Of a DNA stretch of 41,405 nt, positions 9,565-34,101 are shown in pieces. How positions within the stretch are numbered: position 1 is the stretch's first letter; each line of letters opens with the position of its first letter. Origin of the DNA: Candidatus Woesearchaeota archaeon (GTDB lineage: Archaea > Nanobdellota > Nanobdellia > Woesearchaeales > UBA10216); contig JACPTE010000001.1 of assembly GCA_016192945.1 (NCBI GenBank), forward strand, positions 1 through 41,405, written 5' to 3'. The position numbers and the translations under genes are program-made. The notes under the pieces are model-generated. The model had not been told where the DNA came from, made no database searches, and worked only from the letters and a program-made list of their open reading frames with translations.

Positions 9565-12500
9565 ATGCACAAAAGAGGGCAGGTAACAATATTCATTGCC
9601 ATCGGGCTGCTTATCATAGTCCTCGCAGGCATATTCATCCTCGCAACCCAGCCAAAGAAGCCTGTAAGCGCCCTAAATCAGGCCTCCCTTGAGCAAAGCG
9701 GGCTGGATGTACAGCAATACGTAAAGACGTGCCTTCAGCAGAAACTCTCAGAAGCAAAGGAATTCGGGCTAAAAGAGCAGCTCAGGCAGGTGCAGGAGGC
9801 TTACATCCAGGAGCAGCTAAGGCAGTGCTCAGACTTCTCTGAATTTGAAAAGCAAGGGCTCACTGTAAAGGCAGGAGAGCCAAAAGCAGAGGTGATTCTT
9901 ACAGGCCAAGTGCTGATGGTGTCTGTAAACTACCCAATCACTGTCAGAAAAGGGGATGCAGAAATAAGCATGGGGAAATTCAACGAATACATAAAGAGGG
10001 ACTCAACACTGCAGCTCAGGCAGGACACAACACTCACATCAAGCAGAAGAACGCTTACAACAGACGACGGAAGAGCACAAATCACCATACCCCAGACAGC
10101 GCTAATAACAAAAGACGGGCAGCAAATAGACGGGCTATCAATGAGAATAATTGACAAGAACTTCAACAGCCTTGACAACCCTGTTGTTTATACTGGAGTG
10201 GCATACGAGGGCTTGCCTGAAGGAGCCAAATTTGAGCCAGGCATAGAGCTTACGATAAAATACGACCCTGGCAAGCTGCCTGGAGTGCCTGAAGAAAGCC
10301 TTGCAATAGCCTATTATGACGAGGAAAAAGGCATCTGGACAGTGCTTGACAGCAGGGTTGACACAAGCAGCAAAACAGTGACAGCAACAATAACACACTT
10401 CACAAAATTCGCAATAGTATACGGGTGCACAGGAACAGACAATGAGCAGGCAATAGACCTGGGATTCCTGTACAAGGCGCCATGCTATGCTGAAGGGGCA
10501 GGGGCAGGAGCAGAATGCCCGCAGTGGATAATCAGGAAGAGCCCAGCCAGCAGCGAGTTCATAAGAAAGCCTGAAGATGTAGGAAAAGGGGCTGCACAAG
10601 GGCAGGGGCCTGACTCAGGCCCGATATACGCCCCCCCGGGGCAGGAAGTCAAGATATACAGCGAGTTCAAAGACCTCTCAATTGGAGAATGCAGGAACAG
10701 CTGGGATGCTTCAAAGGATGGCATCCCGGCAGGAACATACGGCTACAGGCAGGTAAAGGACGCAGGAAGCAAGAAATCAGCAGCCCAGATTGAATTCAGC
10801 CTTATGCCCAATGGAGGGAGCTGCGCATCAAAGGCCAGCGTAATAGTTAAGTGCGACGATGAATGCACAGACTTCAAGCTGAACACAGAAGAGGCAAAGC
10901 CAGACCAGATAAAAAAAGAGGGAAACACATACAACATAACATTCACCGCATCCGCACTCAAGGCAAACGACAAAAACACACTGAGCTTCACAGTAAAAAA
11001 CCTGTACGAGGCGTGCTCATCAGCAGAGGCAATGCTGACACTGAGCGGGAAAGGGATGTTTGAAAAGTGCCCTGAAAGCTCAGGAGAGGAAGACTACCTG
11101 ATACAGGGCTGTGCCTGCGGCAGTAAAAATGCGAACATAATATACGATGCCGACAAGGTAGCAAAAAACAGCAAATTCAAGGAAATTGCAGCAAAAAAGC
11201 AGAAAGAGCTAACAAGCGAGGAGAAATCAATACTCAAAGAGGCAGTTGCCAAGGGAAAAGAGCAATACTGCATAAACAACAACATAGTCAGCAAGGAAAG
11301 GCTGCAGCAGGAAAAATCCAGAATCTCAGGATACCTCCAAACATTCAAGGAACTGGCAAAGGATGAACAGCTAACAGGATGCTGCAGCAAGGAAGCAGAG
11401 CTATACCCCGACCTGTCAACAGAAAAGGGAAAGGAAGGCTGCGAAATAGTCGTATGCAAAAAAAAGGAAAGCTATTTCTGGGCATACACCGGCTGGGAAT
11501 TCAAGGATGGAAAAAGGCAGGCAAAGAACGAGCAGAAATGCAAAGGAACAGGGGGAAGCAAGCCCACATTCCTGGCAATGGGATGCGGAATAACATCAGG
11601 CGCAACAGGCGGGGGAGCATCACCAGGAACTCCAACTACACCAACTACGCCGAGCCAGCCAGGGCAGCAGCCACCAGCACAGCCCGGAAAACAGCCTCCA
11701 GGCACAGGACAGCCAGGAACAGGAACCCAGACAGGCACAATAGACCTTGACAACTGTAATGCAAACAATGTGGGAAAGGCAGCATGCAAGGACAGCAACA
11801 CGCTGGAATACTGCCTGGAAACAACACCAGATCCCAGCCAGCCAGCAGCATACAGCAAGATATCAGCAATATGCAGCAACGGGTGCGACACAACAACAGG
11901 AAAATGCAAGACACCTGACGACTGCAAAACAAGAGAAGACACAAGCAAGAGCCCAAGATGCAGCAGCAGGGACACAAACTATGCAGAGGTCTGCTTAAGC
12001 TCGGAAATATGGGGCTATAACTGGCTTGCTGTAAAGTGCGCCAACGGGTGCGACACAACAACAGGAAAATGCAAGCAGACCGTAACCACGCCGCCCCAAC
12101 AGCCGCCAGCGCAACCCCCGCAGCCATCCCAACCAAATCCAGGAACCTGCCCTGCAGGATACTCATTCAACGGGGCATGGGGAAGGCCCACAAGCAAGGC
12201 AACAGAAGCAAGCAGCAAATACTGCAACGGGGACAAGCTTTACTTTTACAATGCAGACAGCACAAGAACAGACCAGACTGGAAACCTGCTCGGATCTGCC
12301 TGCGAGAAAAAGTGCGATAATGGATGCGAAGCTACAAGCGCAGCCACAAACGAGGGGAAATGCAGGGAAAATCCTGTAACTCGGCCCTCAGGGCCTGAAG
12401 GGTATGAGCTGATGAGCGGAATTTCAGAAAGCTGCGGCGCAACGAGGGCATCATACCTTTACATCTGTGGAGGGGACCAAAACAGCAACTTTCAGGCAGT

Positions 12501-13197
12501 CAAAAACAGCCAATCAGCCAACTCATTTGCATGCAAAGATGGAAAGTGGTTCAAAAAAGACTGCGCTACACTGGGAGGGTGCGTGGAAGAGACTGGAAGG
12601 TGCCTTGTATCAGAGCCGGAATGCCCTGTAACTTACGCTGTAAAATATGCAGCTGCGCCAGAAATGAACCAGGAATGCCAGAACGTGAATTTCTGGAAAT
12701 CGGAAGATTATGTAAGCTGCAAGGATGGCGTATCATTATACTGCGACAAAAGAGGGAATGCGTGCATAAGCAAGCCAGGCAAGGAGCAATGCCAGTGCAC
12801 AGCAGACAACAAATGCCTGGCAGAAACCCAGTTCAACTGCAAAAGGTTCGGGGAATCATGCAATCTCGGAGAGGTATGCTGCGGAGATGAAACTCTGAAT
12901 TACTGCTACAGACCATTAAAGATAAGCCCAAGCGGCACATGCACAACAAAAGACACAAGCCTGGTGAAGTGCAGCAGGGAGAGCCAGGCATGCGGTCCGG
13001 AATTCCCGCAATGCTGCGATGAAGATAACTTTGTATGCACAAGAGACCGGCCATGGGAGCCTGCAAACACAGCAGGCCACTGCAAAAAGAGAACCAGCCA
13101 GGGACAGCGCTGCTCATACCTGCTGGGGGATGCTGACTGCTTCAAGGACTTAACATGCTCAGGATTCCCAACGCCAACATGCATAAAGTCAAAATGA
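9565..13197 (+). CDS. Large Cys-rich surface protein with type IV pilin-like N-terminus
   Basis: N-terminus MHKRGQVTIFIAIGLLIIVLAGIFIL; shared ectodomain ending SLAIAYYDEEKGIWTVLDS...HFTKFAIV; Pro/Thr linkers; several Cys-rich modules. Confidence 0.8.
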   Translation: MHKRGQVTIFIAIGLLIIVLAGIFILATQPKKPVSALNQASLEQSGLDVQQYVKTCLQQKLSEAKEFGLKEQLRQVQEAYIQEQLRQCSDFSEFEKQGLTVKAGEPKAEVILTGQVLMVSVNYPITVRKGDAEISMGKFNEYIKRDSTLQLRQDTTLTSSRRTLTTDDGRAQITIPQTALITKDGQQIDGLSMRIIDKNFNSLDNPVVYTGVAYEGLPEGAKFEPGIELTIKYDPGKLPGVPEESLAIAYYDEEKGIWTVLDSRVDTSSKTVTATITHFTKFAIVYGCTGTDNEQAIDLGFLYKAPCYAEGAGAGAECPQWIIRKSPASSEFIRKPEDVGKGAAQGQGPDSGPIYAPPGQEVKIYSEFKDLSIGECRNSWDASKDGIPAGTYGYRQVKDAGSKKSAAQIEFSLMPNGGSCASKASVIVKCDDECTDFKLNTEEAKPDQIKKEGNTYNITFTASALKANDKNTLSFTVKNLYEACSSAEAMLTLSGKGMFEKCPESSGEEDYLIQGCACGSKNANIIYDADKVAKNSKFKEIAAKKQKELTSEEKSILKEAVAKGKEQYCINNNIVSKERLQQEKSRISGYLQTFKELAKDEQLTGCCSKEAELYPDLSTEKGKEGCEIVVCKKKESYFWAYTGWEFKDGKRQAKNEQKCKGTGGSKPTFLAMGCGITSGATGGGASPGTPTTPTTPSQPGQQPPAQPGKQPPGTGQPGTGTQTGTIDLDNCNANNVGKAACKDSNTLEYCLETTPDPSQPAAYSKISAICSNGCDTTTGKCKTPDDCKTREDTSKSPRCSSRDTNYAEVCLSSEIWGYNWLAVKCANGCDTTTGKCKQTVTTPPQQPPAQPPQPSQPNPGTCPAGYSFNGAWGRPTSKATEASSKYCNGDKLYFYNADSTRTDQTGNLLGSACEKKCDNGCEATSAATNEGKCRENPVTRPSGPEGYELMSGISESCGATRASYLYICGGDQNSNFQAVKNSQSANSFACKDGKWFKKDCATLGGCVEETGRCLVSEPECPVTYAVKYAAAPEMNQECQNVNFWKSEDYVSCKDGVSLYCDKRGNACISKPGKEQCQCTADNKCLAETQFNCKRFGESCNLGEVCCGDETLNYCYRPLKISPSGTCTTKDTSLVKCSRESQACGPEFPQCCDEDNFVCTRDRPWEPANTAGHCKKRTSQGQRCSYLLGDADCFKDLTCSGFPTPTCIKSK

Positions 13198-16100
13198 AAA
13201 TGGCAAAAAGAGGGCAAATAACACTGTTCATAATAGCAGGCATAGCCATACTCTTCCTCTTTGTAGGCCTGCTAATGGTACTCAAGCCAAAGGATACCAA
13301 CCAGAGCAGAGCGAATGCCGCGGCCTTTGACAGCTATGTTGCAGCTACAAGAAGCTATGTGAACAGCTGCCTTGACAAAAGTCTGTTTGAGGCATCAGAA
13401 AGTTACCCATTTAGGCAGGAGAACAAAAGGCTTCAGGAGGCGTACATAGAGGCAAGGCTCAGGGAATGCAATGATTTCACTCGATTAACAGGAAAAGGAA
13501 TTGACATATCTGAAGGGAATGCAAAGGTGGAAGTAATCCTAACAGACAATGTTCTTGTTGCACACGCAACATATCCACTTACGATAAGCGACGGAAAATT
13601 GAAGGCAAGCATAAGCGAGTTCAGTTCCCAAATAAAGATGAACTCTGAATCAAAGCTGGTGCAGGGCAGTGATGGTATAGAAAAAGGTGTAGACATAGTT
13701 TCAGGCAACAGGAAGGCAGAGCTCATATTGATTGAAAAAACTGCTGCAATCAAGGATGGCCATGTTGTGGACAGCATAGGAATAAAGATGACTGAAAGGA
13801 ACTTTGAAAACCTGGGCAACACGCAAGTTATAGGCTCTACTGTATATGAGGGGGAGCCTGATGGAGCGTTATTTGACAAGCCTGCTGTGATAAAGATAAG
13901 CTACAGCAATGCAGAACTGCCTGAAGGAACAGATGAAAACTCGCTCGCAATAGCGTACTATGACCTGGAAAGCAAGCGATGGGTGGGACTGGAAAGCTAT
14001 GTAGACGCTCAATCCAAAAGTGTTTCTGCAAGAATCAACCATTTCACAAAATTTGCAATAGTGGCTGGCTGCGGAAAATCAAATCCGCAGGAGATACAAT
14101 TTGGTTTCATTGATAACTGCGCATCAAACAGCGGCGAGCAGTCTTTCAGCTTCAGCTTCATAAAGGACGGAGACAGCACCTGCGTAAGGGATAAAGAGCC
14201 CATATACATAAAGCTAAACTGCGACGGACAATGCGGAGAAGTGCTTTTCAATGGGCAAGCATTGCAAAAAAAAGAAGATTCATATGCAGTGCTATCAGCA
14301 GGCCTGCTGAAAAAGTCAGGTCAGGAGAATATTCTTACAATAAAGTCCGAAAAGAATGGATGCAACTCTGCACAGGGAACTTTCAGCCTCTTTGGAACAG
14401 GCATGCTTCCGAAATGCGGAAGCGGAAAGATAGCAAGAAGCTGCACATGCGGGCAGATAAATCTGGGGCCAGTATATGACGACCAGGCATATAGAAGCCT
14501 GATTACAAACAGGGACTACAGGGAATTAAGCGACAATGAGCTGGAAAAGGCAGTCTCTCCGGGAAGCCAGTCATACTGCTGCGAGGACAAGCCAAGCAGA
14601 AAACCTTGCCAGGAAAGTGCTCAGACATCTCAGCAGGCATGCTCTGTTCAAGACAGAATCAACTTACTCTGCAAATATGGGCCCAATAATGACGTGAACT
14701 ACAACCCAGCATACCCTTCATGCAATGGTGTAGTGAACGGAAGGCCAGTGGGCTTCGCAGACCCATCAATTGGTGAGGAGCTCAATATTCTTACAAACTA
14801 TAATCGAGACTCAGGCCTTACCACTGTTACAGAATACTCCAGCGGAGGAAAATATTCCAAAAACTTATTCTGCAATCTGCAGCAGGGAACCAAGAGCCAA
14901 CAGACTTCAGGTGAAGGGAACCGGGTTATGGATGCAACTCTAATGGGCCCTAATTCATCCAGTGTAGGGGATGTTATCCAATTAGAGGCAAATTTAGCAG
15001 GAAACAGCCTGCAAAATGCAGATATCTGGATTGCAACATCAGATTACAGAAGCCCTTACCCATACAAGTGCAATGGAAAAATTATCGGCGAATGGTGCCT
15101 TATAAGTGAAGCCCGTCTGTCAGGTAACACAGGAAAAATCGCAGGGCAATGGACACCCCAGCAACCAGGCCAATATATTGCTGCAGTCAATGCCTATCAA
15201 AATGACGGGAAAAAATGCACAGGAAATCCGAATAGACCGCTTCCGAAAGACTGGCTTGAGTGTGCTAAGGGAAGTATAAGCATAAAAATAAGCGAAAAAA
15301 CAGGCAACAAGTTTTCCGTTTTTGTATCAGGGCCTGCCACAGCAAACCAAGGGGAAATGTTAACCTTCTCAGCGTCAGTCAACAACATACCTAAAGAGAA
15401 TACATTATCAAAAGGGTCTTTGTACGCGATGGCAGAGATATGGGCAACCACAGCCGACCAAAAGCTTCCTGAAGGATGCAATGGAGAAAAATCAGGGCCT
15501 TGGTGCCTCTTGCAAAGAAAATACATAGACGCTCCCGATCCAACAACATTCAATGCTGAATGGAAACCGGCAAAATCAGGCAAGTACATTGCTGTTGTAA
15601 ACGGGTTTACCTCATTAATAAAATGCAGTGGAAACCCATTCGGGATTCCAAGCGACTGGATAAGGTGCGGCACACAGGATTCCATAGTGGTTGATGTAAA
15701 AGAAAAATCAGAGGGAATAATCGTAAGTGAAGGCAATTATGAAAAAGTATACGAAGGAAGAGGCTTGGAAAGATATTGCACTAAGGACAGCCTTGGCATT
15801 GTGGACAACATAAACGGCAGGGAAGGCTATGACCTGCTGTGCACTGCCAACAAAGGATATTACCAGTTCATTGAGTGCGACACTGACGGGAAAACAGAGA
15901 GGCAACCAAGGGATGCTGGGAAAACATCAGTCCAGGGAACAATTATAGATGTTAAAGGTAGCGACTACATTTGTGCCAGCAATGACGGCTATGAGCAGTG
16001 GGAAAAATGCGGCGGTGAACCTTTGTCAGGGGGGCAGGGACTTTATATTCCTGACAAAGGAACCACAGATGTCAACAATAAAAGGTTTTATTGCTGTCAT

Positions 16101-17348
16101 GACAGGCTTTACACTGCTCCGTGCAGCCAGGTTGAGCCAAAACAAAGTAATTTGTGCATCCACACAGAATTCTCAGACCTAACATCAGAGGATAAGCAGC
16201 TTCAATTGGCAAGGGATACTGGCGCGTCATACATTAAGCAAATCTTCCCATGGAAATCAGCTCAGCCTAACGGTCCTGAGGAATACGACTGGAAAACTTT
16301 TGACAGGTGGTTTGAAAAGATTAGGACGAAAAACCTTAAGGTAATCGCACGCATTTCATTAGCTCCTGAGTGGGCAAGGACAGAGAAAGGGGTAAATACA
16401 GGATATAAATCTGATTATTGCGGTTTTGGCTGTGAAATATCAACAAGGCCTGATATGGACAAGATTGGCAAGTTTTCTGAGTTCATTGGAAAATTTGTTG
16501 AAAGGTACAAGCCAGAATATGTGCAGATATGGAATGAGCCAAACCTTGCAATAGAATGGTCCAACAAGGGAGTGAACCCCTCCGAGTATAACCAGATGCT
16601 TAAGTCAGCATATACCGCTATCAAAAAGGCAAATCCAGACACCCAAGTTATCATGGGCGGATTGGCGCCTACTACAACAGACAGCTTTAAAGAAAATAAT
16701 GGCCTGGTATCTTCTGATGAGTTTGAATTCATAGACGGAATGTATAAGGCTGACAAGGATATAGGAAACTACTATGATTTAATAGGCGTTAATTCACACC
16801 CATTCCCTGAAACTACAGCCTCTATGAAGTGCGACGGCAGTACACCGAAGCTTACAAACCCCTTTGACAATAGCATTGAAGTAAGCTGGATGATCAACGG
16901 CCAAAAAGACCAGTATGGAAAGCCAACTAATGCAGGTGGCAACTGCTGGGCTTTTGACAGGGTACGGCTTTTGCATGACTACTTTGCTAAGAAAATAGTT
17001 GCATCAAACCTTGACAGCCCAAAGAAAATAGCAATAATGGAGTATAGCACATATCTCAACTCGTACTTTCAGTATAGGAGGGATATGAGTGACAAAAATG
17101 CAGTAAAAGATGAGGAAAACCGTCAGGCAGCAGAGCTAAAGAGCGGCTATGAAAGGGCTTCAACAGAATGGAAGGATTGGGTAGGCCCTGTATGCTGGTT
17201 CCTTGCTTCTACACCAGATAAATGGGAAAACGAAGGCAACTTCTTTAAAAAAGATTATACCGTCAGGTCAAGTGCCTGCTCGTACGGCATTTATTCAGGC
17301 AGGCCGCAACTTTCATCATTTTCTGACTCGTGCACTCAGCTTGTTTAG
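13194..17348 (+). CDS. Large surface protein: pilin-like N-terminus, Ig-like repeats and C-terminal glycoside hydrolase (clan GH-A-like TIM barrel)
   Basis: MAKRGQITLFIIAGIAILFLFVGLL; tandem paralog of the preceding ORF; C-terminus has YVQIWNEPNLAIEW (acid/base) and IAIMEYSTYLNSYF (nucleophile candidate); start overlaps previous stop as ATGA. Confidence 0.8.
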   Translation: MKMAKRGQITLFIIAGIAILFLFVGLLMVLKPKDTNQSRANAAAFDSYVAATRSYVNSCLDKSLFEASESYPFRQENKRLQEAYIEARLRECNDFTRLTGKGIDISEGNAKVEVILTDNVLVAHATYPLTISDGKLKASISEFSSQIKMNSESKLVQGSDGIEKGVDIVSGNRKAELILIEKTAAIKDGHVVDSIGIKMTERNFENLGNTQVIGSTVYEGEPDGALFDKPAVIKISYSNAELPEGTDENSLAIAYYDLESKRWVGLESYVDAQSKSVSARINHFTKFAIVAGCGKSNPQEIQFGFIDNCASNSGEQSFSFSFIKDGDSTCVRDKEPIYIKLNCDGQCGEVLFNGQALQKKEDSYAVLSAGLLKKSGQENILTIKSEKNGCNSAQGTFSLFGTGMLPKCGSGKIARSCTCGQINLGPVYDDQAYRSLITNRDYRELSDNELEKAVSPGSQSYCCEDKPSRKPCQESAQTSQQACSVQDRINLLCKYGPNNDVNYNPAYPSCNGVVNGRPVGFADPSIGEELNILTNYNRDSGLTTVTEYSSGGKYSKNLFCNLQQGTKSQQTSGEGNRVMDATLMGPNSSSVGDVIQLEANLAGNSLQNADIWIATSDYRSPYPYKCNGKIIGEWCLISEARLSGNTGKIAGQWTPQQPGQYIAAVNAYQNDGKKCTGNPNRPLPKDWLECAKGSISIKISEKTGNKFSVFVSGPATANQGEMLTFSASVNNIPKENTLSKGSLYAMAEIWATTADQKLPEGCNGEKSGPWCLLQRKYIDAPDPTTFNAEWKPAKSGKYIAVVNGFTSLIKCSGNPFGIPSDWIRCGTQDSIVVDVKEKSEGIIVSEGNYEKVYEGRGLERYCTKDSLGIVDNINGREGYDLLCTANKGYYQFIECDTDGKTERQPRDAGKTSVQGTIIDVKGSDYICASNDGYEQWEKCGGEPLSGGQGLYIPDKGTTDVNNKRFYCCHDRLYTAPCSQVEPKQSNLCIHTEFSDLTSEDKQLQLARDTGASYIKQIFPWKSAQPNGPEEYDWKTFDRWFEKIRTKNLKVIARISLAPEWARTEKGVNTGYKSDYCGFGCEISTRPDMDKIGKFSEFIGKFVERYKPEYVQIWNEPNLAIEWSNKGVNPSEYNQMLKSAYTAIKKANPDTQVIMGGLAPTTTDSFKENNGLVSSDEFEFIDGMYKADKDIGNYYDLIGVNSHPFPETTASMKCDGSTPKLTNPFDNSIEVSWMINGQKDQYGKPTNAGGNCWAFDRVRLLHDYFAKKIVASNLDSPKKIAIMEYSTYLNSYFQYRRDMSDKNAVKDEENRQAAELKSGYERASTEWKDWVGPVCWFLASTPDKWENEGNFFKKDYTVRSSACSYGIYSGRPQLSSFSDSCTQLV
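14936..15713 (+). repeat. Two tandem Ig-like domain repeats within the GH-containing surface protein
   Basis: Repeated WxPxxxGxYIAxVNxxxxxxxKCxGNPxxxPxDWxxC...SIxVxV preceded by GPxxxxxGDxxxxxA and EWCL/PWCL motifs. Confidence 0.6.
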
Positions 17349-17411
17349 GGAATGGTGCTAAGAGAAAAATTAATCTGGCCTGTAATAATTGACAATTTGA
17401 CAATAAAACAG

Positions 17412-17951
17412 CTATGCCTTGCGGACAAATCCATAAACAGCTGTAACAGCATCCTTCGCCTGCATTGTGCCCATCCCAAGCGACAGGAAAAGCTGCCTTA
17501 TGTCGTTCTCAGCCCTCATCAAGTAAGGCTCTGAGGCAAATGAAGCCGCAACAACCATGACCTTGTGCTCGCGGCACAGCCTTATGTTCCTCATGGCGTT
17601 TTCAACAACATCCTGCCTGTGGCGTGAGGAAAGCATGCCTGAAAGGGGGAAGCAGACTGCAACGCCCCTATCCGCAAGCTCCTTGTAGAATGAGTGCCTC
17701 AGCGGCTGTGCCAGCCCAATTATTATTTTCGCCTTGTTATTCCCCCTGCTGATGTCAGAGACAGTTATATCCGCGCTCTTTAAGCTTGCTGTATAAAGCC
17801 TTACCTGAGTTTGCTGCTTCAGCTCCTCAACCCTGTTATGGCTTTCAAGGGGGCTCTCATAAAAGAGCGCCAAACCCCTGATGCCCAGCCTTTCAGCCAT
17901 GTCTATCATTTCCCTCTCATTTCCTTTCGGAGCAACTATGTCTATGAACAT
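17412..17951 (-). CDS. rnp3: RNase P p30-like subunit (Rpp30/Rnp3, PHP-like TIM barrel)
   Basis: MFIDIVAPKGNEREMIDMAERLGIRGLALFYES...IIIGLAQPLRHSFYKELADRGVAVCFPLSGMLSSRHRQDVVENAMRNIRLCREHKVMVVAASFASEPYLMRAENDIRQLFLSLGM. Confidence 0.75.
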   Translation of the reverse strand: MFIDIVAPKGNEREMIDMAERLGIRGLALFYESPLESHNRVEELKQQTQVRLYTASLKSADITVSDISRGNNKAKIIIGLAQPLRHSFYKELADRGVAVCFPLSGMLSSRHRQDVVENAMRNIRLCREHKVMVVAASFASEPYLMRAENDIRQLFLSLGMGTMQAKDAVTAVYGFVRKA

Positions 17952-17955
17952 TTTT

Positions 17956-18333
17956 TCAGTTTTCTCCAATAAAGATGATGTTATCCTCCTTCCTAAAATC
18001 AGCATCACCTGTCAATATTTTTGCATTATGAAGCCTGGCAGTTGCAAGAACTATTGCGTCTGCCATCCCGAGCTTCTTAAGATGCTTGTTTTTTCCTGCA
18101 AGCAATGCTGTTTGCGCGCTTAAAGGAACAACAAAGGAAGAGTGGATTACAAAATCAATCTTATTGTCTGCTTCATCAGGAAGAGCATTCAGGAGGAAAT
18201 TGTATATTTCTGCTATATTTATTGAGCTGACAATTATTTCCTCATCGCTGTCAATGAATTTTTTTGCCTTTTCGCCGTTCGGACTGCCCTTAAAGTATTC
18301 AATCCACGCCCAGCTGTCAACTAAAACGGTCAA
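17956..18333 (-). CDS. vapC: PIN-domain toxin VapC
   Basis: VDSWAWIEYFKG, INIAEIYNFL, LGMADAIVLATA, ILTGDADF: PIN acidic residues; adjacent antitoxin. Confidence 0.9.
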   Translation of the reverse strand: MTVLVDSWAWIEYFKGSPNGEKAKKFIDSDEEIIVSSINIAEIYNFLLNALPDEADNKIDFVIHSSFVVPLSAQTALLAGKNKHLKKLGMADAIVLATARLHNAKILTGDADFRKEDNIIFIGEN

Positions 18334-18514: not shown

Positions 18515-18521
18515 TATATTG

Positions 18522-18541
18522 ATATAACTTATAAGTTATAT
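18522..18541. promoter_or_regulatory. Perfect 20-bp palindrome, candidate VapB/VapBC operator
   Basis: ATATAACTTATAAGTTATAT, self-reverse-complementary, 7 bp upstream of vapB ATG, partly overlapping the TATA-like ATATTTAAAA (18538-18547). Confidence 0.65.
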
Positions 18542-19553: not shown

Positions 19554-20000
19554 ATGGGAAAAAAAGTTATTGTAATAGGATTTCTCACAATAATTGCCAT
19601 TTCCATCCTTATTGGAGGGTATTTTGTATTGCTGAAGGGGAAAAATGAGCCTTCACCAGCTCTACAAGAAAAAAACCCCAGCGAGAGCTTAAGTGAAATA
19701 TCGGCTGCAGGGGATGGAAAAACCATTCCCATTAACCAAAGAAAATACATCAAGGGCTATATAGAAAAAGCTGAAGTCAACTCAGGAGCGCTGTCAATCA
19801 GGATAAAAAACCAAGCCATAAGCCAGGATTTTACGTCTGATAAGTACACCTACATTTTTACAACAATTAATTCAGCCCAAAAGCCAATCATGCTGCAGGA
19901 GATAGAACAGGGAAATTATAACCTGATAGGAAAATACACCCTCATAGAATACAAAGAAGAAAACGGGAAATTAGTGGCAAAAACGATAAGCGTAACATGA
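19554..20000 (+). CDS. Single-TM N-terminally anchored hypothetical protein
   Basis: MGKKVIVIGFLTIIAISILIGGYFVLLKGK; stop overlaps next start (ATGA). Confidence 0.65.
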   Translation: MGKKVIVIGFLTIIAISILIGGYFVLLKGKNEPSPALQEKNPSESLSEISAAGDGKTIPINQRKYIKGYIEKAEVNSGALSIRIKNQAISQDFTSDKYTYIFTTINSAQKPIMLQEIEQGNYNLIGKYTLIEYKEENGKLVAKTISVT

Positions 20001-24126: not shown

Positions 24127-24942
24127 ATGATGGCATCCAGGAAATCCCAGGTAACCATATTCATAATAGCAGGGCTTGTCATGTTCATGATAGCAGGGCT
24201 CCTGCTTTACCTTGGAAGCAGCGTGCAGACAAGAAAGGAAGCATTATACTCAGACTCTTCACCAGTAACAAGATATGTGAGCGAGTGCGTAAAGAGAGCG
24301 GCAGAGCAGGGGATGGACAAGGCAAGCACACAGTCAGGATACATATTCGCAAGCCAGAACGGCCCAACCAGCGATTACTACTCCACCAGCTACGAAGGAA
24401 AGCTGTATGTCACACGAGGCATGCTGAAAATCCCGTTCGCTGTAGGGGAAAGAGGATACTCCCTGCAATCAAGGCAGGATATTGAAAGGCAAACAGAGCA
24501 ATACATAAACAGGGCAATAATGAACAACTGCATTGACTTCGGAAGCTTCCAGAGGCAATATACGGTCATTGCGGCATCAGGCCCTGAAACAAACGTCACA
24601 ATAACAGACAAGGAGATTTTCACGCACATGAAAATGCCTGTAGAGATAACAGAGCTGTCAACAGGCTCAAACTACAAGATAAGCGACTTCTCAGCATCAA
24701 AAGCAACTCCAATAGGGGAGGTTCACCATGCAGCAGAGATTATTGCGGGCGAAATATCAATAAGGCAAAAACTCGGCAGTTTTGATGCAGAAAACCCAAA
24801 CATACCTGGAAACATAAACGGCGTGTCAGCAGCCCATGAAGAAGTCAGGCAAGGCAGCAGAGTAACAGGAATCATACTGACACTAGAAAAATCAGGGGCA
24901 AGATTCACATTCGCAATAGAAAACACAAGGCAGGCCGGCTAA
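24127..24942 (+). CDS. Pilin-like surface protein (271 aa), short paralog of the 9565/13194 N-terminal domain
   Basis: MASRKSQVTIFIIAGLVMFMIAGLLLYLG; VTRYVSECVKRAAEQGMDKASTQSGYIF...INRAIMNNCIDFGSF pattern. Confidence 0.7.
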   Translation: MMASRKSQVTIFIIAGLVMFMIAGLLLYLGSSVQTRKEALYSDSSPVTRYVSECVKRAAEQGMDKASTQSGYIFASQNGPTSDYYSTSYEGKLYVTRGMLKIPFAVGERGYSLQSRQDIERQTEQYINRAIMNNCIDFGSFQRQYTVIAASGPETNVTITDKEIFTHMKMPVEITELSTGSNYKISDFSASKATPIGEVHHAAEIIAGEISIRQKLGSFDAENPNIPGNINGVSAAHEEVRQGSRVTGIILTLEKSGARFTFAIENTRQAG

Positions 24943-24944
24943 AA

Positions 24945-27900
24945 ATGAACCTTGGAAAAAAACAGATAATGCTAACTGTGTTTCTGCTTTTAGCTGCAGC
25001 AATAGTCCCATCCCTGCTCTCTGAAAAAGCCATTGCAGAGAGCGGATGCTGCTACAACCCCAACGCGCCCATTGTGGCGTGCAGCAGCACAGTACAGGTT
25101 GACTCCATACAAGACTGCTGCCCACAACCAGAAGCGTCATTCCCAACATACTACTCAGCAGAAGTCCAGAACCAGCAAGCATGCCTCCAAAACTTCTTCA
25201 GGGCACAAACAAACTGCAACACCCTTGACCAATGCACCCAGGGATGCTGCTGCCCCGAGTCAAGGGTGAGGGCCAGGGCATTATGCAGGCAGACATTCCA
25301 CCCATTTGCTAACGGCCAGCCAACAGACTGCCAGACAGCATGCGCAACAACACCGCCAATACAAACATGCTCACTAAGCCTCAACGCAATAAACATAAAG
25401 GGGGAAAAGCAGATACAGCTTGTCTGGAACAACAATTGCGGGGCAGACACCTTCACCATAGAGCGGTGCGAGGGAAACAACTGCAACAACTTTGCAGCAC
25501 TCGCAACCTGGCACGCAACAAGCTACTTAGACAGGGACAGCGCCATCAAATGGAACCAATACTACTCATACAGGCTTACAACAACAGCCAATGGGCAAAC
25601 ATACACTGAAACAAAAACAATATACTCTGGAGACATTGAGTGCTGGAAAAATTTTGGGACATACAATTTCTGCATAAGCGACTTCACATACCAGCAGGAG
25701 CCAATCAAAAGCTACCTGATAACAATCCTGAACTACCCTGCAGATGACACTGCATTCAGCCAGAAAGTCAATGACGAATTCGGCGGGAAATTCAGGACTG
25801 CAAGGAACTGCAACACCAACAACCAGCTTTCGTCAGCAAGCACAAGATGCCCTGCAGGAAGGATATGCACAGTGGACAGCAACGGCGCGGGAAGATGCGT
25901 TGAAACAACAGAATGCAGCGTCATTGGAAAGCCATTCGGGCTTTTCAGCAGCAGGACAAGCTGCGAAACAGGGCATTACTGCTTCCTTGACAAATCAGCA
26001 GGAAACGCCAACACGTGCTATGACTGCTCTCCAAGGATGAGCTGCTACGACTACAAGTCAAGGGATGCATGCGAAACAAACAACTGCGGTGCAGGGAACT
26101 GCGTATGGAACACAGTTGGAAACGCAGAGCTCGGGACAGGGGTCTGCGTAGATTACCAGAAGAACAACTGCGCATGGTGCGACAAGAAGGGCACAGAGGG
26201 CGTAGGGAGCCTTAAAGGATACAACACAGTATTTGACAGGTGCAGCCAGGAAAAAACAGCAGCCCTTTCAACGCCAACATACGACTGCACAAGAGCAGTG
26301 AGGCAGTGCACATCAACATGCCTGAACTTTGACATAAACCAGTGCAACGCACACACCGCAACAATAGACAGGAGCACAAACTCGCTGGTAATATCTAACC
26401 CTCCGGGAGACTTGTGCGGGCTTAACGTCTGCCAATGGTATGGCACAGAAACAGCAGGAAGATGCAGGAAAGACGCTGACTTTGATGAGCGCTATGACTG
26501 CCAGACAACAGACTGCGAGAAGGACTACTTCCCTCCAGAAACCACAATCACAGAAAACAGGGGCAGCCTGATAGCAGACGTATTTGACAGGAGGGCTGTT
26601 GACGATTATGGAGGATTCACCACAACCTCCACAACCTATATCTGCTCATCAAACGACCAGGCAAGGGGCTGTGCAGACACAACACAGGGATACACTGCAT
26701 TAACCCAAAGGTCTTCAAGCATACTTGAACTGGTACGGCAGAATACTCTCACAGAGGGAACCAACTACATAAGGTACTACAGCAAGGACCAGAACAAAAA
26801 CCTGGAGACAGTAAAGCGGATGACACTTCAGGTGACAATACCTGTTGACGGAAGCCTGACATTAACAGCAACAGATGCCTCAACCCACGAGAATCTGGGT
26901 GCAGACACTTACATTGACCGCTTACCAACATCAGCAGGAACAACACCACTGACAATATACCACCTAATCCCCGGAAGCCACACATACAGGATAACAAAAC
27001 AGGGATACACAGACGGGACTGGGGATGTCACAATAATCGCAGGCGAGACAGCAACACGAAACATTGAGATGAGCCAGACAGTAGACAACAACGGACGACT
27101 GGCGGTGTCAGTAACTGACAGCGAAACAGGAGACATATTGCATGCAGACGTGTACATGGACAGCTCAGCAGCAACAAGCGGAACAACACCACTCACAATA
27201 CCAGGCCTAACGCCAGGAGCGCACAGCTACAGGATAGCAAAACAGGGATACACAGATTCAACTGGAAGCATAACAATCACTGAAAGGCAGATAACCTACC
27301 TGAGCGCAACCCTCGGAGCCAGAAACCCCCAGACAGGATACCTTTCAATAACAGCAACAGACAAAGACACCAACACAGCATTAAACGCTGATGCATACAT
27401 AGATGAATCAACAACACCAGCAGGAACAACACCACTCACAACAAGCCTCAGCCAGGGAACCCACCGCTACAGGATTGCAAAAACAGGATACAGGGAAAGC
27501 TCAGGAACAGTAACAATAAACCAAGGGCAGGCAACACAAATAAACGTGCAGCTTGAGTTCATACCAGTTCCTGGAACTGGCGTGCTATCCATGAGCGCCT
27601 CAGACGGCACAGACAGCCTTATTGCAAACGTTTACCTGGACGACTCAACAACACCAGCAGGAACAACACCACTCACAACAAGCCTCCAGCCCAACACGCA
27701 CACATACAAGGTTACAAAGACAGGATACCAAGATTCCTCAGGCTCATTTACAATACAAACAGGAAGAACCACCACAGTCAGCGTGCTGATGACACGCTCA
27801 GCCAACCCGCCAAACACAGGAGGAGTATTCATACGAACAACAGACAGCATTACAGGGAATCCTGTAAATGCCAACGCATACATAGACAGCTCAACAACAC

Positions 27901-30900
27901 CAAGCACTACCCCGACAACAATCAGCGGGCTAACGCCAGGAACACACAGCTACAGGATAACAAAACAGGGATATAATGACAACACAGGAACAATCACCAT
28001 AGAAAGCGGGCAGACAGTTACATTAAGCGCACAGCTAAGCCCTGCAACAACACCTCCAGCAGGCAATGGAAACCTCGCCATAAAAGCTATTGACAGCGCA
28101 TCATCTGAGCCTGTTGAGGCAGACACATACATAGACGGCGCTACTACAACAAGCGGAACAACACCAATAACAATACACAACCTCGCCCCAGGAGCACACA
28201 CATACAGGATAGCAAAAACCAACTACAAGGACATTGAGGGGAGAGTTGAGGTAACAGCAGGAACAACCACCTACCTTATCGTATCAATGATACCCCCGAT
28301 TCCAACAAGCACAGGGAACTTGTTTGCATCAGCAACAGACTCCTTAAACAACAACCAATTATTTGCCAGCATATACATTGACGGGGCAACAACACCAGCA
28401 GGAACAACACCACTGACAATAACAAGACTAACCGCAGGAAACCACAACTACAGAATATCAAAGACAGGCTACCAGGACAGCCAGGGCAGCATACAAATCA
28501 ACGCAGGAGACACAGCCACATTGAACATGCAACTAAGGCCTGTATCCAGCACAGGGCTTTTCGTGACTGCAACAGACGTTCTCACACAACAATCACTGGC
28601 TGCAGACGTATACATGGACAGCTCAGCAGCAACAAGCGGAACAACACCAGTAAGCATCCCAGGGCTCCAGCCAGGAAGGCACACCTACAAGATAACAAAA
28701 TCAGGATATAAGGACTACAACAGCCAGATAGACATACAGGCAGGACAGGCAGCCACAGCAAATGCGATAATGGAACTGGTAACAGCCCCGAACAGCGGCA
28801 ACCTGTCAATCATAGCCACAGACGGCAATGCGAACATCATTGCAGAGGTATCAATAAACAGGGCATACAGGGGAACAACACCTCTGACAATAAACCTACA
28901 GCCAGGAATCTATACTTACGCCATAACAAAGCAGGGATACGATGACGCAATGGGCGAAGCAACAGTAACAGCAGGAAGAACAGCCTACATCACAGCAAAC
29001 CTAAACCCCGCATACAGACCAAGTGAGCTGACAATAACGCTCATTGAGCCAAAACTGTCCGCAACAAGCCAGAGAGTCTACAACCTGGTGATAAGGACCA
29101 ATAAGGAAGCAGACTGCAAGGCAAGCTTCCTGGCTGACAGAACCTATGAAGACATGCCCCTGACATTCACACAAGGAAACAACGGAATGCGCAGCCTGAA
29201 TGACTATTCGGGGACAGATGAGAAAACCTACGTAAAATGCAGGGACAGGGAAGGCACAATAAGGGCTGCCGAATTCAACATACAATACTTAGGCACGCCG
29301 CCATCAATAAGGCAGATATACGCTGACAACGTGAATGACGTGCCGATAGCATCAACAATGACAGCAATAACAGACCAGCAAACTGTATGCAAGTACTCAA
29401 AAAGCCAGGAAGCTGCCTACAGCGGCATGACGCCATTCCTTGGCTACAACGAAAACTCGGCAGAAGCCTATAAATTGGTGAACAAGCACAACCTGACAGC
29501 AGCAGGCGGAGACCTCATTGACAGGCAAACAAACACATTCTACGTGATGTGCCAGAACAAGGCAGGAGTGCTGTCAACAAAAGTCCCTGTAAGCATAATA
29601 GTTGACACCAATCAGGAACCGACAATAACACCTGACTACAATGAATACTACCCAAACACAACAGTAGAGTTTGGAGTGATAACAAACAAGTGGGCAAAAT
29701 GCAAATACTCAAACAGCTCAGACTACTCAGATTACAGGGACTTCAGCAGCGTCCCAACAATGAGAATAAAAGACAGGCTCACCCTTTACCCAGGCAGCTT
29801 CACATACTACATAAGGTGCGTATTCCTCCAGGGAGCGGTAAGGGAAACCTCAATACACTTCGTGGTTGACATAACCCCGCCGACCAGCCCTAAAGTAGAG
29901 GTTGAAAACATAACCAGCAGGAGCATAATAAAGGCAAAGTGGAAATCAGAAGACAACGAATCAGGAATAAAGCTCTACCAATACTCAGTGACAAACTCAT
30001 CAAACAATACAATACTGGACTGGACATCAACATCCCAGGAAAGCCAGAGCATTACAGGGCTTGAGCTGGCTAACGGAACAACATACTATGTTTCTGCCAA
30101 AGCGCAAAACAACGCAGGCCAGTTCAGCAGGGATGCAACAGGCATAGGCGTAAAGGCCAACTTCGCAACATCAACAAGCTGCCAAAACGGAGTAAAGGAT
30201 GAAGGGGAAACAGACATAGACTGCGGGGGGAGATGCAGCGACCAGTGCGGCAACATGATGAAATGCAGGAACAACGATGACTGCCAGAGCAGCTACTGCG
30301 CCCTGAACCAGACATGCTACCAGCCCACCTGCTACGACAAGGTCAGGAACGGGAACGAGTCAGGAACAGACTGCGGAGGACGAGCCTGCAGGGCATGCGA
30401 ATCAGGAAACGAATGCAACAGCGACTCAGACTGCAGGTCAAACCACTGCATTTCAGGAATGTGCACAAACCAGACATCCACAGACACCTGCTCAAACAGC
30501 AAGATTGACTATGGAGAGACAGACATAGACTGCGGGGGGGTGTGTGCATCAGTAAAGAACAAGAAGTGCGAAGACGGCAAGACATGCACAAACGAGACAG
30601 ACTGCCAATCAGAAAAATGCATAGCCAACACCTGCGCATCAATAGACGACCGGGATGGGGATGGAATTCCTGACAGCAAAGACAACTGCCCTGACGCATA
30701 CAACCCAGACCAAAAAGACACAAACAATGCAGGAATAGGCGATGCGTGCAACAAAGACATAGACGGAGACGGCATGGATGATGAATGGGAGAAGAAATAC
30801 ACCTGCCTTGACATTACAAAAAGGGACAGCACAACAGACCCTGACAACGACACCATGTCAAACATCAGGGAATACCAAACTCACACCATTCCAAACGGGA

Positions 30901-31445
30901 AAAAGCTCAAGGGGCAGCTGAACCCCTGCAAAAAAGACACTGACGGGGATGGATTTGAAGACGGAACAGAATACAATGAAAACTCAGACCCTACAGACGC
31001 AAACTCCAAGCCAGAAAACCACCTTCTTCTGGTGCTCCTATGGGCTGGAGCAGCAATACTGATACTGGCAGCAGGCTATCTGATATTGACAAGACTTGCC
31101 AGAAAACCTGCACAAACCCCGCAGAGAACAGGAATGCAGCCTGGGACACCAACCAAGCCGCCAATTCAGCAGCCAAGAACTCCCATAATCATCAGCCCCA
31201 AAACAAGGCAGGCGATAATCAGAAAGAGGGAGACAGGGCTTGCAAGCCAAAGAAGCGAAATACTCAGTGAGTTTGAGGCGAAACCCAAGACAGAATTGCA
31301 GGCCCAAAAGCCAGAACTGCCAAAAGAATCCCTGGCAGGGCAGCAGGACAGGGTCTTTGAAATGCTGAGGAAGGAGACATCTGAGCTAACACAGCAATCA
31401 CAGCAAAAAAGCCAAGCTGTACAGAAAAAAAGGGGAAACAAGTGA
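24945..31445 (+). CDS. Giant (2166 aa) surface protein: Cys-rich N-terminus, nine PEGA-like repeats, Fn3-like region, Cys-knot repeats, TSP3-like Ca-binding repeats, C-terminal TM anchor and cytoplasmic tail
   Basis: Signal peptide MNLGKKQIMLTVFLLLAAAIVPSLLSEKAIA; PEGA-like YIDxSTTPAGTTPLTI..GTHxYRITKxGYxD; DRDGDGIPDSKDNCPD; LLLVLLWAGAAILILAAGYLIL near the C-terminus. Confidence 0.85.
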   Translation: MNLGKKQIMLTVFLLLAAAIVPSLLSEKAIAESGCCYNPNAPIVACSSTVQVDSIQDCCPQPEASFPTYYSAEVQNQQACLQNFFRAQTNCNTLDQCTQGCCCPESRVRARALCRQTFHPFANGQPTDCQTACATTPPIQTCSLSLNAINIKGEKQIQLVWNNNCGADTFTIERCEGNNCNNFAALATWHATSYLDRDSAIKWNQYYSYRLTTTANGQTYTETKTIYSGDIECWKNFGTYNFCISDFTYQQEPIKSYLITILNYPADDTAFSQKVNDEFGGKFRTARNCNTNNQLSSASTRCPAGRICTVDSNGAGRCVETTECSVIGKPFGLFSSRTSCETGHYCFLDKSAGNANTCYDCSPRMSCYDYKSRDACETNNCGAGNCVWNTVGNAELGTGVCVDYQKNNCAWCDKKGTEGVGSLKGYNTVFDRCSQEKTAALSTPTYDCTRAVRQCTSTCLNFDINQCNAHTATIDRSTNSLVISNPPGDLCGLNVCQWYGTETAGRCRKDADFDERYDCQTTDCEKDYFPPETTITENRGSLIADVFDRRAVDDYGGFTTTSTTYICSSNDQARGCADTTQGYTALTQRSSSILELVRQNTLTEGTNYIRYYSKDQNKNLETVKRMTLQVTIPVDGSLTLTATDASTHENLGADTYIDRLPTSAGTTPLTIYHLIPGSHTYRITKQGYTDGTGDVTIIAGETATRNIEMSQTVDNNGRLAVSVTDSETGDILHADVYMDSSAATSGTTPLTIPGLTPGAHSYRIAKQGYTDSTGSITITERQITYLSATLGARNPQTGYLSITATDKDTNTALNADAYIDESTTPAGTTPLTTSLSQGTHRYRIAKTGYRESSGTVTINQGQATQINVQLEFIPVPGTGVLSMSASDGTDSLIANVYLDDSTTPAGTTPLTTSLQPNTHTYKVTKTGYQDSSGSFTIQTGRTTTVSVLMTRSANPPNTGGVFIRTTDSITGNPVNANAYIDSSTTPSTTPTTISGLTPGTHSYRITKQGYNDNTGTITIESGQTVTLSAQLSPATTPPAGNGNLAIKAIDSASSEPVEADTYIDGATTTSGTTPITIHNLAPGAHTYRIAKTNYKDIEGRVEVTAGTTTYLIVSMIPPIPTSTGNLFASATDSLNNNQLFASIYIDGATTPAGTTPLTITRLTAGNHNYRISKTGYQDSQGSIQINAGDTATLNMQLRPVSSTGLFVTATDVLTQQSLAADVYMDSSAATSGTTPVSIPGLQPGRHTYKITKSGYKDYNSQIDIQAGQAATANAIMELVTAPNSGNLSIIATDGNANIIAEVSINRAYRGTTPLTINLQPGIYTYAITKQGYDDAMGEATVTAGRTAYITANLNPAYRPSELTITLIEPKLSATSQRVYNLVIRTNKEADCKASFLADRTYEDMPLTFTQGNNGMRSLNDYSGTDEKTYVKCRDREGTIRAAEFNIQYLGTPPSIRQIYADNVNDVPIASTMTAITDQQTVCKYSKSQEAAYSGMTPFLGYNENSAEAYKLVNKHNLTAAGGDLIDRQTNTFYVMCQNKAGVLSTKVPVSIIVDTNQEPTITPDYNEYYPNTTVEFGVITNKWAKCKYSNSSDYSDYRDFSSVPTMRIKDRLTLYPGSFTYYIRCVFLQGAVRETSIHFVVDITPPTSPKVEVENITSRSIIKAKWKSEDNESGIKLYQYSVTNSSNNTILDWTSTSQESQSITGLELANGTTYYVSAKAQNNAGQFSRDATGIGVKANFATSTSCQNGVKDEGETDIDCGGRCSDQCGNMMKCRNNDDCQSSYCALNQTCYQPTCYDKVRNGNESGTDCGGRACRACESGNECNSDSDCRSNHCISGMCTNQTSTDTCSNSKIDYGETDIDCGGVCASVKNKKCEDGKTCTNETDCQSEKCIANTCASIDDRDGDGIPDSKDNCPDAYNPDQKDTNNAGIGDACNKDIDGDGMDDEWEKKYTCLDITKRDSTTDPDNDTMSNIREYQTHTIPNGKKLKGQLNPCKKDTDGDGFEDGTEYNENSDPTDANSKPENHLLLVLLWAGAAILILAAGYLILTRLARKPAQTPQRTGMQPGTPTKPPIQQPRTPIIISPKTRQAIIRKRETGLASQRSEILSEFEAKPKTELQAQKPELPKESLAGQQDRVFEMLRKETSELTQQSQQKSQAVQKKRGNK
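26843..29020 (+). repeat. Nine tandem PEGA-like repeats (about 80 aa / 240 bp each)
   Basis: Periodic G(N/Y)LxIxATDxxxxxxLxADxYIDxSxTxxGTTPLTIxxLxPGTHxYRIxKxGYxDxxGxxTIxAGxTxxLxxxL. Confidence 0.85.
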
Positions 31446-32021
31446 AAGCCCAGATTTCAGGACAGGTATTCATATACATATTCTCCATGATAGTGGCCTC
31501 AGCAGTGCTGATATTCGGGTATGTTGCAATAACCAACCTGAACAAAGTAAACACAGAACTACAGATGACACGGTTCACAGAAAAGCTGAGGGAAGACTTT
31601 GACAGCGCAAAAGGCTTCGGAACAGTAAGGAACGAGCAATCCTACAAAGAGATACCCCAGCAAATACAAAATGTATGCTTTGCATACATTGAGAAGATAT
31701 ATGAGCCGAGAAGCAGCATGGCAGCAAGATTAAGCCAGATTGAGGACATCCAGATAAGGAACTCCATAGAATCAGACCAAACAGCATTCAGCCAAAACCC
31801 CCCGGATACCAGCTCAATAAAGAACGTGTTCCTAATCAAGATGCTTCCAAGTAACAAACGGGAGGCTGCAACTAAGGATGACAGGCTGCGGGAACAGGGT
31901 CATAGTCTCAAGTCCGACAGAGCTGCAGGGCACAAAACACAACGGAGAGGGATGCAGTTCCAACAGCGAATGCCAAAGCGAATCATACTGCGACAGCACA
32001 TGCAAGCCAGTCTGCTCCTAA
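31442..32021 (+). CDS. Pilin-like membrane protein, apparently frameshifted near 31840
   Basis: GTG start overlapping the previous TGA; MKAQISGQVFIYIFSMIVASAVLIFGYVAI; frame 0 is coherent to FLIK, then +1 frame gives CFQVTNGRLQLRMTGCGNRVIVSSPTELQGTKHNGEGCSSNSECQSESYCDSTCKPVCS* ending at 32021. Confidence 0.65.
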
Positions 32022-32025
32022 TAAA

Positions 32026-33081
32026 ATGACCAAGGGAAAAAAAGGCGCCATAGGGGAACAGGTAAACTGGATATACGTGATGATAGCAGGAGGGCTAATC
32101 TTACTGTTCTTCTCAGGGCTTGCATACAAGCAGAAAGAGGCTGCAGACAAGAATGCAGCCCAGGAATCAATCAACACGATAGACTGGCTCACAACACAGC
32201 CGCCCCAAAGCTCTCAAATAGTCAAGATACCAAACCTAAAGCTGAGGATAGAATGCCAGGAGCAGGGCCCTACAACAGTGTCAAACATACTAAGGATAGG
32301 CGACATATCGCTCCAGGAGAACGAGGTAATATTCGGGGGGGAGGTTAACAGGAACGAGCTTACAGCCATGACAAGGGAATGGTCAGCCCCATTCAAGGTG
32401 ACAAACCTCATCTACCTCGCCGGGAATGACACCCGCTACATAATAGTGGCAAGCAATCCCCGGCATGAAGCACTTGCACAGGAACTGTTTTACCAGATTC
32501 CAGATTCACTCAACAAAAAGCTGTACAGGGCAACTGACGCGATAGACGAAGCCCCTGAAAGGAGAATAGTGGCTGTCACAATAAATTCAGAGCCAGCAAA
32601 CCTCCAGAACAGCATTGACTTCAGCAAATACCAAGAAGCCATGGCAATAAAGATAATACCAAGCCAGGACAGCACAGAATACGGGCAGGTGGAATTCCGC
32701 CAGTATGACAAATCAGCAGCTGGGTTTGTTGAACCGCCGCAAACAGCAATCTACAGCGGAATAAGCATGCTCATAGGGGCAATATACTCGCAGGACGCTG
32801 ATTCCTACAGGTGCAATTCCAAAAAGGCATACCAAAAGCTGGAGCGCGTCAGCAGGGCATACTCAGAAAAGGCAAACATCCTGAAAACAGAAGCACAGAA
32901 AACCACAAACAGGCAGCTCCCTGACCCATGCACACCAGGAATGTACAACGATGCCCTGACAGGCATAAACAGCCTGAATTCAAAAGCAAGGGCATTTAAT
33001 GAGAATATCCTGGCGGAAATGCAGTCACTAGAAAACAAGAACAGGGAGCTGCTGAGGGCAGCATGCCCTACAATATACTGA
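32026..33081 (+). CDS. Membrane-anchored hypothetical protein of pilin-like cluster
   Basis: MTKGKKGAIGEQVNWIYVMIAGGLILLFFSGLAYKQK; co-directional, 4 nt after the corrected upstream stop. Confidence 0.65.
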   Translation: MTKGKKGAIGEQVNWIYVMIAGGLILLFFSGLAYKQKEAADKNAAQESINTIDWLTTQPPQSSQIVKIPNLKLRIECQEQGPTTVSNILRIGDISLQENEVIFGGEVNRNELTAMTREWSAPFKVTNLIYLAGNDTRYIIVASNPRHEALAQELFYQIPDSLNKKLYRATDAIDEAPERRIVAVTINSEPANLQNSIDFSKYQEAMAIKIIPSQDSTEYGQVEFRQYDKSAAGFVEPPQTAIYSGISMLIGAIYSQDADSYRCNSKKAYQKLERVSRAYSEKANILKTEAQKTTNRQLPDPCTPGMYNDALTGINSLNSKARAFNENILAEMQSLENKNRELLRAACPTIY

Positions 33082-33086
33082 CAAAA

Positions 33087-33581
33087 ATGGGAAAAAAGCA
33101 GGCACAGACCAGGATGATTGAAACAGCAGCTGTAGTGATAGTATTCCTCATGCTGCTGGCATTCGGATTCGTGTTTTACGCAAACATACTCAGGGGAAAC
33201 CTGAATGAAAAGCTGGCAGATGCAAAAGAAACAAGGGCGCTCAAGATTGCAAAGACAGCGCTGAACATGCCTGAACTGCAGTGCAGCAAAACGCAGCCAA
33301 TACAAAACTGCTTTGACAAACTCAAAATACAGGGCTTCCAGGCAATAATCCAAAGGGACTCAAATGACGCAAACACATACTACTATGACCTGCTGAAGGA
33401 CAGCAAAATAACAATAAGGCAAATCTATCCAATTCAAGTCTCACAATACTCGCAGACAATATATGAAATGGGAACCGAACAGTCAAAGCAGTCAATATGG
33501 ATGCCAATAGCAATATACGACCCCCTTAAAGATACAGCCTCATTCGGGATACTCACAGTTGATGTATATGAACAAGCTTAA
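33087..33581 (+). CDS. Pilin-like membrane-anchored hypothetical protein
   Basis: MGKKQAQTRMIETAAVVIVFLMLLAFGFVFYANILRG; co-directional. Confidence 0.65.
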   Translation: MGKKQAQTRMIETAAVVIVFLMLLAFGFVFYANILRGNLNEKLADAKETRALKIAKTALNMPELQCSKTQPIQNCFDKLKIQGFQAIIQRDSNDANTYYYDLLKDSKITIRQIYPIQVSQYSQTIYEMGTEQSKQSIWMPIAIYDPLKDTASFGILTVDVYEQA

Positions 33582-34101
33582 GGGAAAGAAATCGCAGATG
33601 GAGATAATAGGGCTTGCAATCATAGTTGCAATAGCCCTTATAGGAATGTTCTTTGCCATAAAATACCTCACAAAAACACGGGAGAGGAGCACAGAGGCAA
33701 GCGACAAGCAGATAGCCTCGTCATTCATAAACACACTCCTGTCAGAAAAATTTGAGATAGAATCATGCAAGCAGGGAATAGAGATGAAAGAGCTGATAAA
33801 GGACTGCACAGCCCAGGCAGACAGGCAGCAGGCATGCAGCAGCAGCAGCAGCCTAGGAGCGACACTCACTTATTGCCAAAAAGCAAGGGAATCAACACAG
33901 CAAATCCTGGACGCTGCATTCGGAGACCAGCAGAACATCCAGTATGAATTCAAGGCTGAAAAATCCAATATTGACGGAAACACAGAAATATGGAGCATTT
34001 CCCGCGGATGCTCAACTTACAAGAACAAGGTGCTTGCCCCCCCATATGTCCTTCCAACAGACAATGAGCCAGTAATAATCTCAATGGGAATATGCAGCTG
34101 A
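33562..34101 (+). CDS. Pilin-like membrane-anchored hypothetical protein
   Basis: MNKLKGKKSQMEIIGLAIIVAIALIGMFFAIKYL; starts inside preceding ORF; ATG at 33562 or 33568. Confidence 0.65.
   Translation: MYMNKLKGKKSQMEIIGLAIIVAIALIGMFFAIKYLTKTRERSTEASDKQIASSFINTLLSEKFEIESCKQGIEMKELIKDCTAQADRQQACSSSSSLGATLTYCQKARESTQQILDAAFGDQQNIQYEFKAEKSNIDGNTEIWSISRGCSTYKNKVLAPPYVLPTDNEPVIISMGICS

Follow-up and report, generated by a model that had tools for sequence, protein, structure and literature searches.

We found that three proteins encoded in the 41,405-nucleotide stretch of DNA analysed here (hereafter the window; contig C18 of genome G000, whose assembly measures 1.07 Mb and is 92% complete) open with one shared N-terminal module, composed of a prepilin-like leader, a hydrophobic helix and an ectodomain with a pair of cysteines, and differ in what follows it. 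One N-terminal domain family with interchangeable payloads had been proposed in a first-pass annotation of the window. This proposal is supported by the presence of the module, joined to many different tails, in 314 of the 371 genomes sampled for the phylum (~85%), often in several copies per genome; the search profile includes the leader, so that leaderless members could be under-sampled. We hold modular display of this kind to be highly probable. The family also seems to be undescribed, as had been suspected: no Pfam or NCBIfam model covers the module, and the literature that we searched contained no description of it, a limited search that does not prove absence. Genes for ribosomal proteins, an Rpb3-type RNA polymerase subunit and GatB/GatE at the left end of the contig suggest that the DNA belongs to an archaeon, while the small genome and the family relations suggest a DPANN lineage of the Nanoarchaeia type. 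The module proteins, with the catalytic part of the second, are as follows:

9565..13197, + strand: N-terminal domain (NTD) protein 1, 1210 amino acids (aa); class III-like leader and helix at residues 1-30, Cys-Cys ectodomain to ~154, ZU5-like domain at ~160-290, Cys-rich C-terminal modules.
13194..17348, + strand: NTD protein 2, 1384 aa; leader and helix, Cys-Cys ectodomain, ZU5-like domain, Ig-like repeats, GH39-like glycoside hydrolase.
16284..16667, + strand: best-matching part of the GH39/clan GH-A-like catalytic domain of NTD protein 2, with QIWNEPN (PF01229 E=9.9e-5, under the family cut-off; PDB GH39 E=7e-5; PslG E=0.0014).
24127..24942, + strand: NTD protein 3, 271 aa; short type without ZU5 domain or payload, opening a conserved operon.

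All three N-termini are of the K(R/K)(G/S)Q(V/I)T(I/L)FI type noted in the first-pass annotation: MHKRGQVTIFI in NTD protein 1, M(KM)AKRGQITLFI in NTD protein 2, for which a second ATG at 13200 may be the true start, and MMASRKSQVTIFI, with RKSQVTIFI, in NTD protein 3. Within residues 1-300, proteins 1 and 2 share 37% identity over 298 residues (E=1e-67). NTD protein 3 aligns with these two at E=3e-7 and 2e-9 (~25% identity), and its alignments still score 6.6 to 8.3 standard deviations over shuffles, and exceed every one of them, after removal of the membrane segment. A profile-profile comparison of 55 short with 27 long relatives returned a probability of 99.9% and E=3.8e-37 over 163 columns. 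Because this match includes the ectodomain and the similarity persists without the membrane segment, the three ectodomains are, judged by their sequences, homologous far beyond chance; they are thus related, as had been claimed, rather than dissimilar. The part common to all three proteins spans residues ~1-155. The second, ZU5-like domain (~160-290, 'HFTKFAIV') is common to proteins 1 and 2 and absent from protein 3. Its predicted structure reaches a pLDDT (predicted local distance difference test score) of 91.9, and Foldseek places it closest to ankyrin ZU5 (best E=2e-5), single-domain matches having template modelling scores of 0.53-0.63 by target length. In the related-locus search with the module of NTD protein 2, the only matches were bacterial ZU5-like parts, and one protein of the own genome (C5:61830), which matches the ZU5-like half only, was left out of the member count. 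The short protein is predicted (pLDDT 86.4) to form a helix at residues 6-39 followed by a mixed alpha/beta head. The earlier description of one member ending early, one continuing into Cys-rich modules and one into Ig-like repeats plus a glycoside hydrolase holds, the hydrolase being GH39/clan GH-A-like.

As for the family at large, 137 distinct members were collected: 59 fall below 330 aa, and the 78 longer ones include some that are incomplete at stretch ends; the tails range from none to >1,500 aa. Pfam matches among 60 tails searched include M23, Amidase_2, GH25, NlpC/P60, C39, beta-lactamase2, NAGPA with a phosphatase, GH39, NosD and Ig/cadherin. Cys-rich tails are likewise found among the payloads, and most tails have no Pfam match. 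The own genome encodes two members beyond those in the window. One, on contig C41, is a 474-aa protein with a C-terminal M23 peptidase (PF01551 E=3.3e-16, 59.7 bits vs. a cut-off of 28.7) whose zinc motifs are intact (HEGTD, HLHF). The other, ~1,200 residues overall, is split over two contigs, lying at one end of C16 and one end of C10; the contigs probably adjoin, since an identical part of this protein is encoded at both ends (L017 and L016/L128). An unusual surface payload was seen in a relative (L118:805-3882), where the module protein carries a phosphodiester glycosidase (NAGPA) and then a dual-specificity phosphatase-like domain.

We found that short members are tightly linked to a different kind of partner. 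The neighbour could be read for 51 of them, and in 37 cases the next gene lies on the same strand within 100 bp and encodes a protein of 400 aa or more whose N-terminus is hydrophobic, which holds for 19 of 470 control genes; most partner proteins carry their own hydrophobic N-terminal signal. The payload therefore seems to be either fused to the module or supplied by the adjacent downstream gene. In the window, this gene and the four that come after it are the following:

24945..31445, + strand: secreted surface protein of 2166 aa, Cys-rich, with nine PEGA repeats, TSP3 and a C-terminal membrane segment, directly after NTD protein 3 (Pfam matches PEGA, TSP3 and fn3).
31442..32029, + strand: P1, pilin-like (KAQISGQVFIYIFSMIVASAVLIFGY...), with a homologue in L050 (E=2e-4).
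32026..33081, + strand: P2, pilin-like (..VNWIYVMIAGGLILLFF..), with a homologue at E=1e-12.
33063..33581, + strand: P3, pilin-like N-terminus (..QTRMIETAAVVIVFLMLLAFGFVFY..).
33559..34101, + strand: P4, pilin-like N-terminus (KKSQMEIIGLAIIVAIALIGMFF..), included in the [GAS]Q comparison below.

Just upstream of the short module gene lies another secreted protein, of 1372 aa (19997-24115), with PEGA and MopE-like metal-binding motifs; a relative that is 31% identical adjoins module genes in L063.

The overlapping genes P1-P4 (31442-34101), which went unmentioned in the first-pass annotation, are conserved and encode proteins with pilin-like N-termini. Other families (L050, L077, L095) have these genes in the same arrangement, with the short module first, then the large secreted protein(s), and then P1, P2, P3 and P4; the P1-P4 order itself is widely kept across genomes. 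P2 was detected in 262 of the 343 genomes searched for it, usually with one or two matches each, and its distribution follows that of the module: it occurs in 260 of 293 module-positive vs. 2 of 50 module-negative genomes (hand tally, Fisher test; figures uncorrected for shared ancestry). Seven genomes of the window's own family (G003, G038, G064, G143, G176, G253 and G282) have neither the module nor P2 and keep the motor/platform, with the peptidase kept in six of the seven; a joint loss of module and P2 is possible in these. Convergent to the cassette, on the minus strand (34111-35940), a 609-aa protein with a class III-like N-terminus (RKGQSSMEAAMLVTVMV) and acidic DCDD-type repeats is encoded, a relative of which is present in L066 (E=2e-11).

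As had been thought, the N-terminus of the module appears to be a class III (prepilin) one and not just any membrane anchor. The junction [KR][GAS]|Q[VI][TS][ILV][FY] is found in nearly all of 99 members, with the hydrophobic helix directly after it, and conservation across the whole family is highest at the +1 Gln and the two Cys. A [GAS]Q junction is present in 100 of 108 members vs. 8 of 154 other basic-then-hydrophobic N-termini in the same loci, and all eight of the latter belong to P1-P4 proteins. This specificity therefore favours a prepilin-peptidase site over a generic anchor, and we consider processing of the module by a prepilin peptidase likely.

It had been remarked that no assembly ATPase, TadC-like platform or prepilin peptidase is visible in the window. 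This is true, and all three were found elsewhere in the genome. A prepilin peptidase is encoded on contig C7 (G000:C7:33202-33519, PF01478 E=2.5e-12, above the cut-off), and such a peptidase was detected in 353 of the 371 genomes. Two loci, on C1 and C11, each encode a TadA-type ATPase and two TadC-type proteins. A third, divergent motor locus (G000:C15:1285-8773, L173) comprises a 769-aa T2SSE-type ATPase, 41-64% identical in 14 relatives examined, a 727-aa nine-helix platform protein, three ~190-aa proteins with five or six helices and two soluble proteins. The C15 platform protein was present in 79 of 80 genomes tested, module present or not, and the presence of this motor is therefore not discriminating. 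Assembly parts thus exist in the genome, and none is specific to the module. We also considered that the module might persist in genomes devoid of any assembly ATPase, which would break the pilus model, as ~50 near-complete genomes gave weak PF00437 matches only, mostly without a standard TadC. This idea was dropped because the weak match is a strongly conserved ~770-aa ATPase adjoining a ~730-aa nine-helix, weakly TadC-like protein.

The reading to which we incline, with moderate confidence, is that the module serves these small archaea as a modular surface carrier akin to minor pilins, subject to prepilin-type processing and cooperating with P1-P4 and a motor. We infer that the short basic leader would be cut at [KR][GAS]|Q by the cell's own prepilin peptidase, the hydrophobic helix then remaining in the membrane or joining a type IV pilus-like filament. 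The ectodomain, presumably tied by a disulfide, would hold the payload outside the cell, either fused (Cys-rich modules, Ig-like repeats with a glycoside hydrolase, M23 and other cell-wall hydrolases) or in the form of the large secreted protein of the next gene. P1-P4 may form a conserved complex of minor pilins that works with the carriers, and TadA/TadC-type motors would move them, possibly for contact with other cells or for use against them. Display on the surface is better founded than a filament, and incorporation into a filament or its tip is put forward only tentatively.

Several findings weigh against this surface-carrier reading. Tails of at least 1,000 aa cannot fit a filament shaft. 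The +5 position is occupied by Phe or Tyr in 91 of 99 members, and Glu+5 is absent; Glu at +5 of the mature protein is typical of bacterial type IV pilins and is not universal in archaea. Neither the 55 short members nor the three proteins of the window gave a Pfam pilin match, the bacterial pilin motif IPR012902 thus being absent, and in a fold search of the PDB the head of the short type matched no solved pilin (best E=0.046; none at E<=0.001). When module sequence profiles were compared with the PDB, nothing natural fell under E=0.3, one pilin appeared at E=0.3-0.6 and one designed-type protein at E=0.01. Most module genes adjoin neither the P1-P4 cassette nor the motors, module and cassette are separate in most genomes, the C15 platform is there with or without the module, and shared ancestry may contribute to the co-occurrence with P2. 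The assembly and display model proposed earlier is thus supported in part, by the class III leader and the availability of peptidase and motors in the genome, and not by the head, the +5 residue or the location of most members.

Some of these points favour simple membrane-anchored surface proteins, in which an uncleaved or trimmed N-in helix would serve as anchor and the ectodomain as a membrane-proximal stalk, with no pilus machine involved. The head without a pilin fold match, the scattering of members away from pilus loci, the very large payloads and the missing Glu+5 would all be expected of such proteins. Yet, a simple anchor leaves unexplained why a near-invariant Gln preceded by G/A/S is otherwise found only in P1-P4 proteins, as well as the co-occurrence with P2 and the operon shared with P1-P4 in several families, and we regard it as rather unlikely. 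Less probable still is a pseudopilin-type secretion system, in which short members and P1-P4 would form a short piston or pseudopilus that exports or releases the neighbouring large secreted protein instead of carrying it. The tight linkage of the short type to the gene of a large secreted protein and the four small pilin-like genes in fixed order agree with such a role, the gene set recalling the minor pseudopilins of type II secretion systems. However, long members bear the payload covalently on the same module, which points to carrying rather than pushing, most partners have an N-terminal signal of their own, and with the single membrane expected in such archaea there would be no outer membrane to cross. 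Finally, a chance likeness of short hydrophobic N-termini with unrelated ectodomains, conceivable from their low complexity and the modest identity of NTD protein 3 to the others, is refuted by the similarity outside the membrane segment, the profile match across the ectodomain and the near-invariant Cys pair.

Little is understood of the ways in which tiny, mostly uncultivated archaea that presumably depend on hosts recognise, hold on to or attack other cells. The module family supplies concrete genes with which cell contact can be tested and links reported archaeal cell-wall hydrolases to a surface carrier, while the P1-P4 cassette provides a marker for locating the system elsewhere. Modular pilins are already known from bacteria, and what is new here is an archaeal module family with swappable payloads. 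The bacterial modular type IV pilins, such as PilB and PilC of Streptococcus sanguinis, comprise >1,200 proteins with 264 architectures and are thought to sit at pilus tips (PMC8179133). Similar to these, a small N-terminal module bears a large unrelated functional module. In contrast to the bacterial proteins, which are defined by IPR012902, the present module is archaeal, has no Pfam or NCBIfam match and a different +5 residue, and combines a Cys-Cys ectodomain with recurrent murein hydrolase payloads. Given that a test for the motif of the bacterial pilin family was negative and that Glu+5 is lacking, we do not count the module among the members of that family. In the Myxococcus Kil system (KilLMN), minor-pilin tips of a Tad pilus are interchangeable, carry variable domains, are matured by prepilin peptidase and act on prey at contact (PMC12075869). 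The module functionally resembles both the bacterial modular pilins and the Kil tips, and we propose that it works like the latter; the action of Kil tips was shown genetically, whereas our proposal draws on sequence evidence and claims no sequence similarity. In turn, the gene for a large secreted protein beside four minor-pilin-like ones recalls the PilY1/minor-pilin tip complex. Unlike PilY1, the 2166-aa protein has PEGA, TSP3 and fn3 domains, and no Pfam match to the PilY1 beta-propeller was obtained in it or in 39 downstream partners.

The module and its varied tails, with enzymes that digest bacterial cell walls among them, suggest a shared set of tools for contact with other cells or attack on them; target and role of the module-borne cell-wall hydrolases are inferred. 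More speculatively, and in our view improbably as a whole, P1-P4 and a type IV pilus motor may constitute a phylum-wide contact system, an archaeal counterpart of the Kil tips, in which exchangeable tips with peptidoglycan hydrolases among them are presented to partner cells, whether bacteria or archaea. Such a system would then account for at least some of the missing nanoarchaeal pilins, given that an earlier census of archaeal pili could not identify pilins for a nanoarchaeal pilus ATPase (PMC4858521). The C1 and C11 motor loci look like the type IV pilus loci 1 and 2, with ATPase and TadC along with coiled-coil proteins, reported from several DPANN lineages (Hamm et al., 2024, PMC11291902); the portions of that account that we consulted do not describe the module, its payloads or the P1-P4 cassette. 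Peptidoglycan hydrolase domains of archaea were found to be prominent in Nanoarchaeota in a study whose main text mentions neither pilins nor pili (Strock et al., 2025, PMC12352652), and peptidoglycan degradation genes were earlier reported in Woesearchaeota. The cell-wall hydrolases described here fit both reports, and such domains are now seen fused to one recurring surface module.

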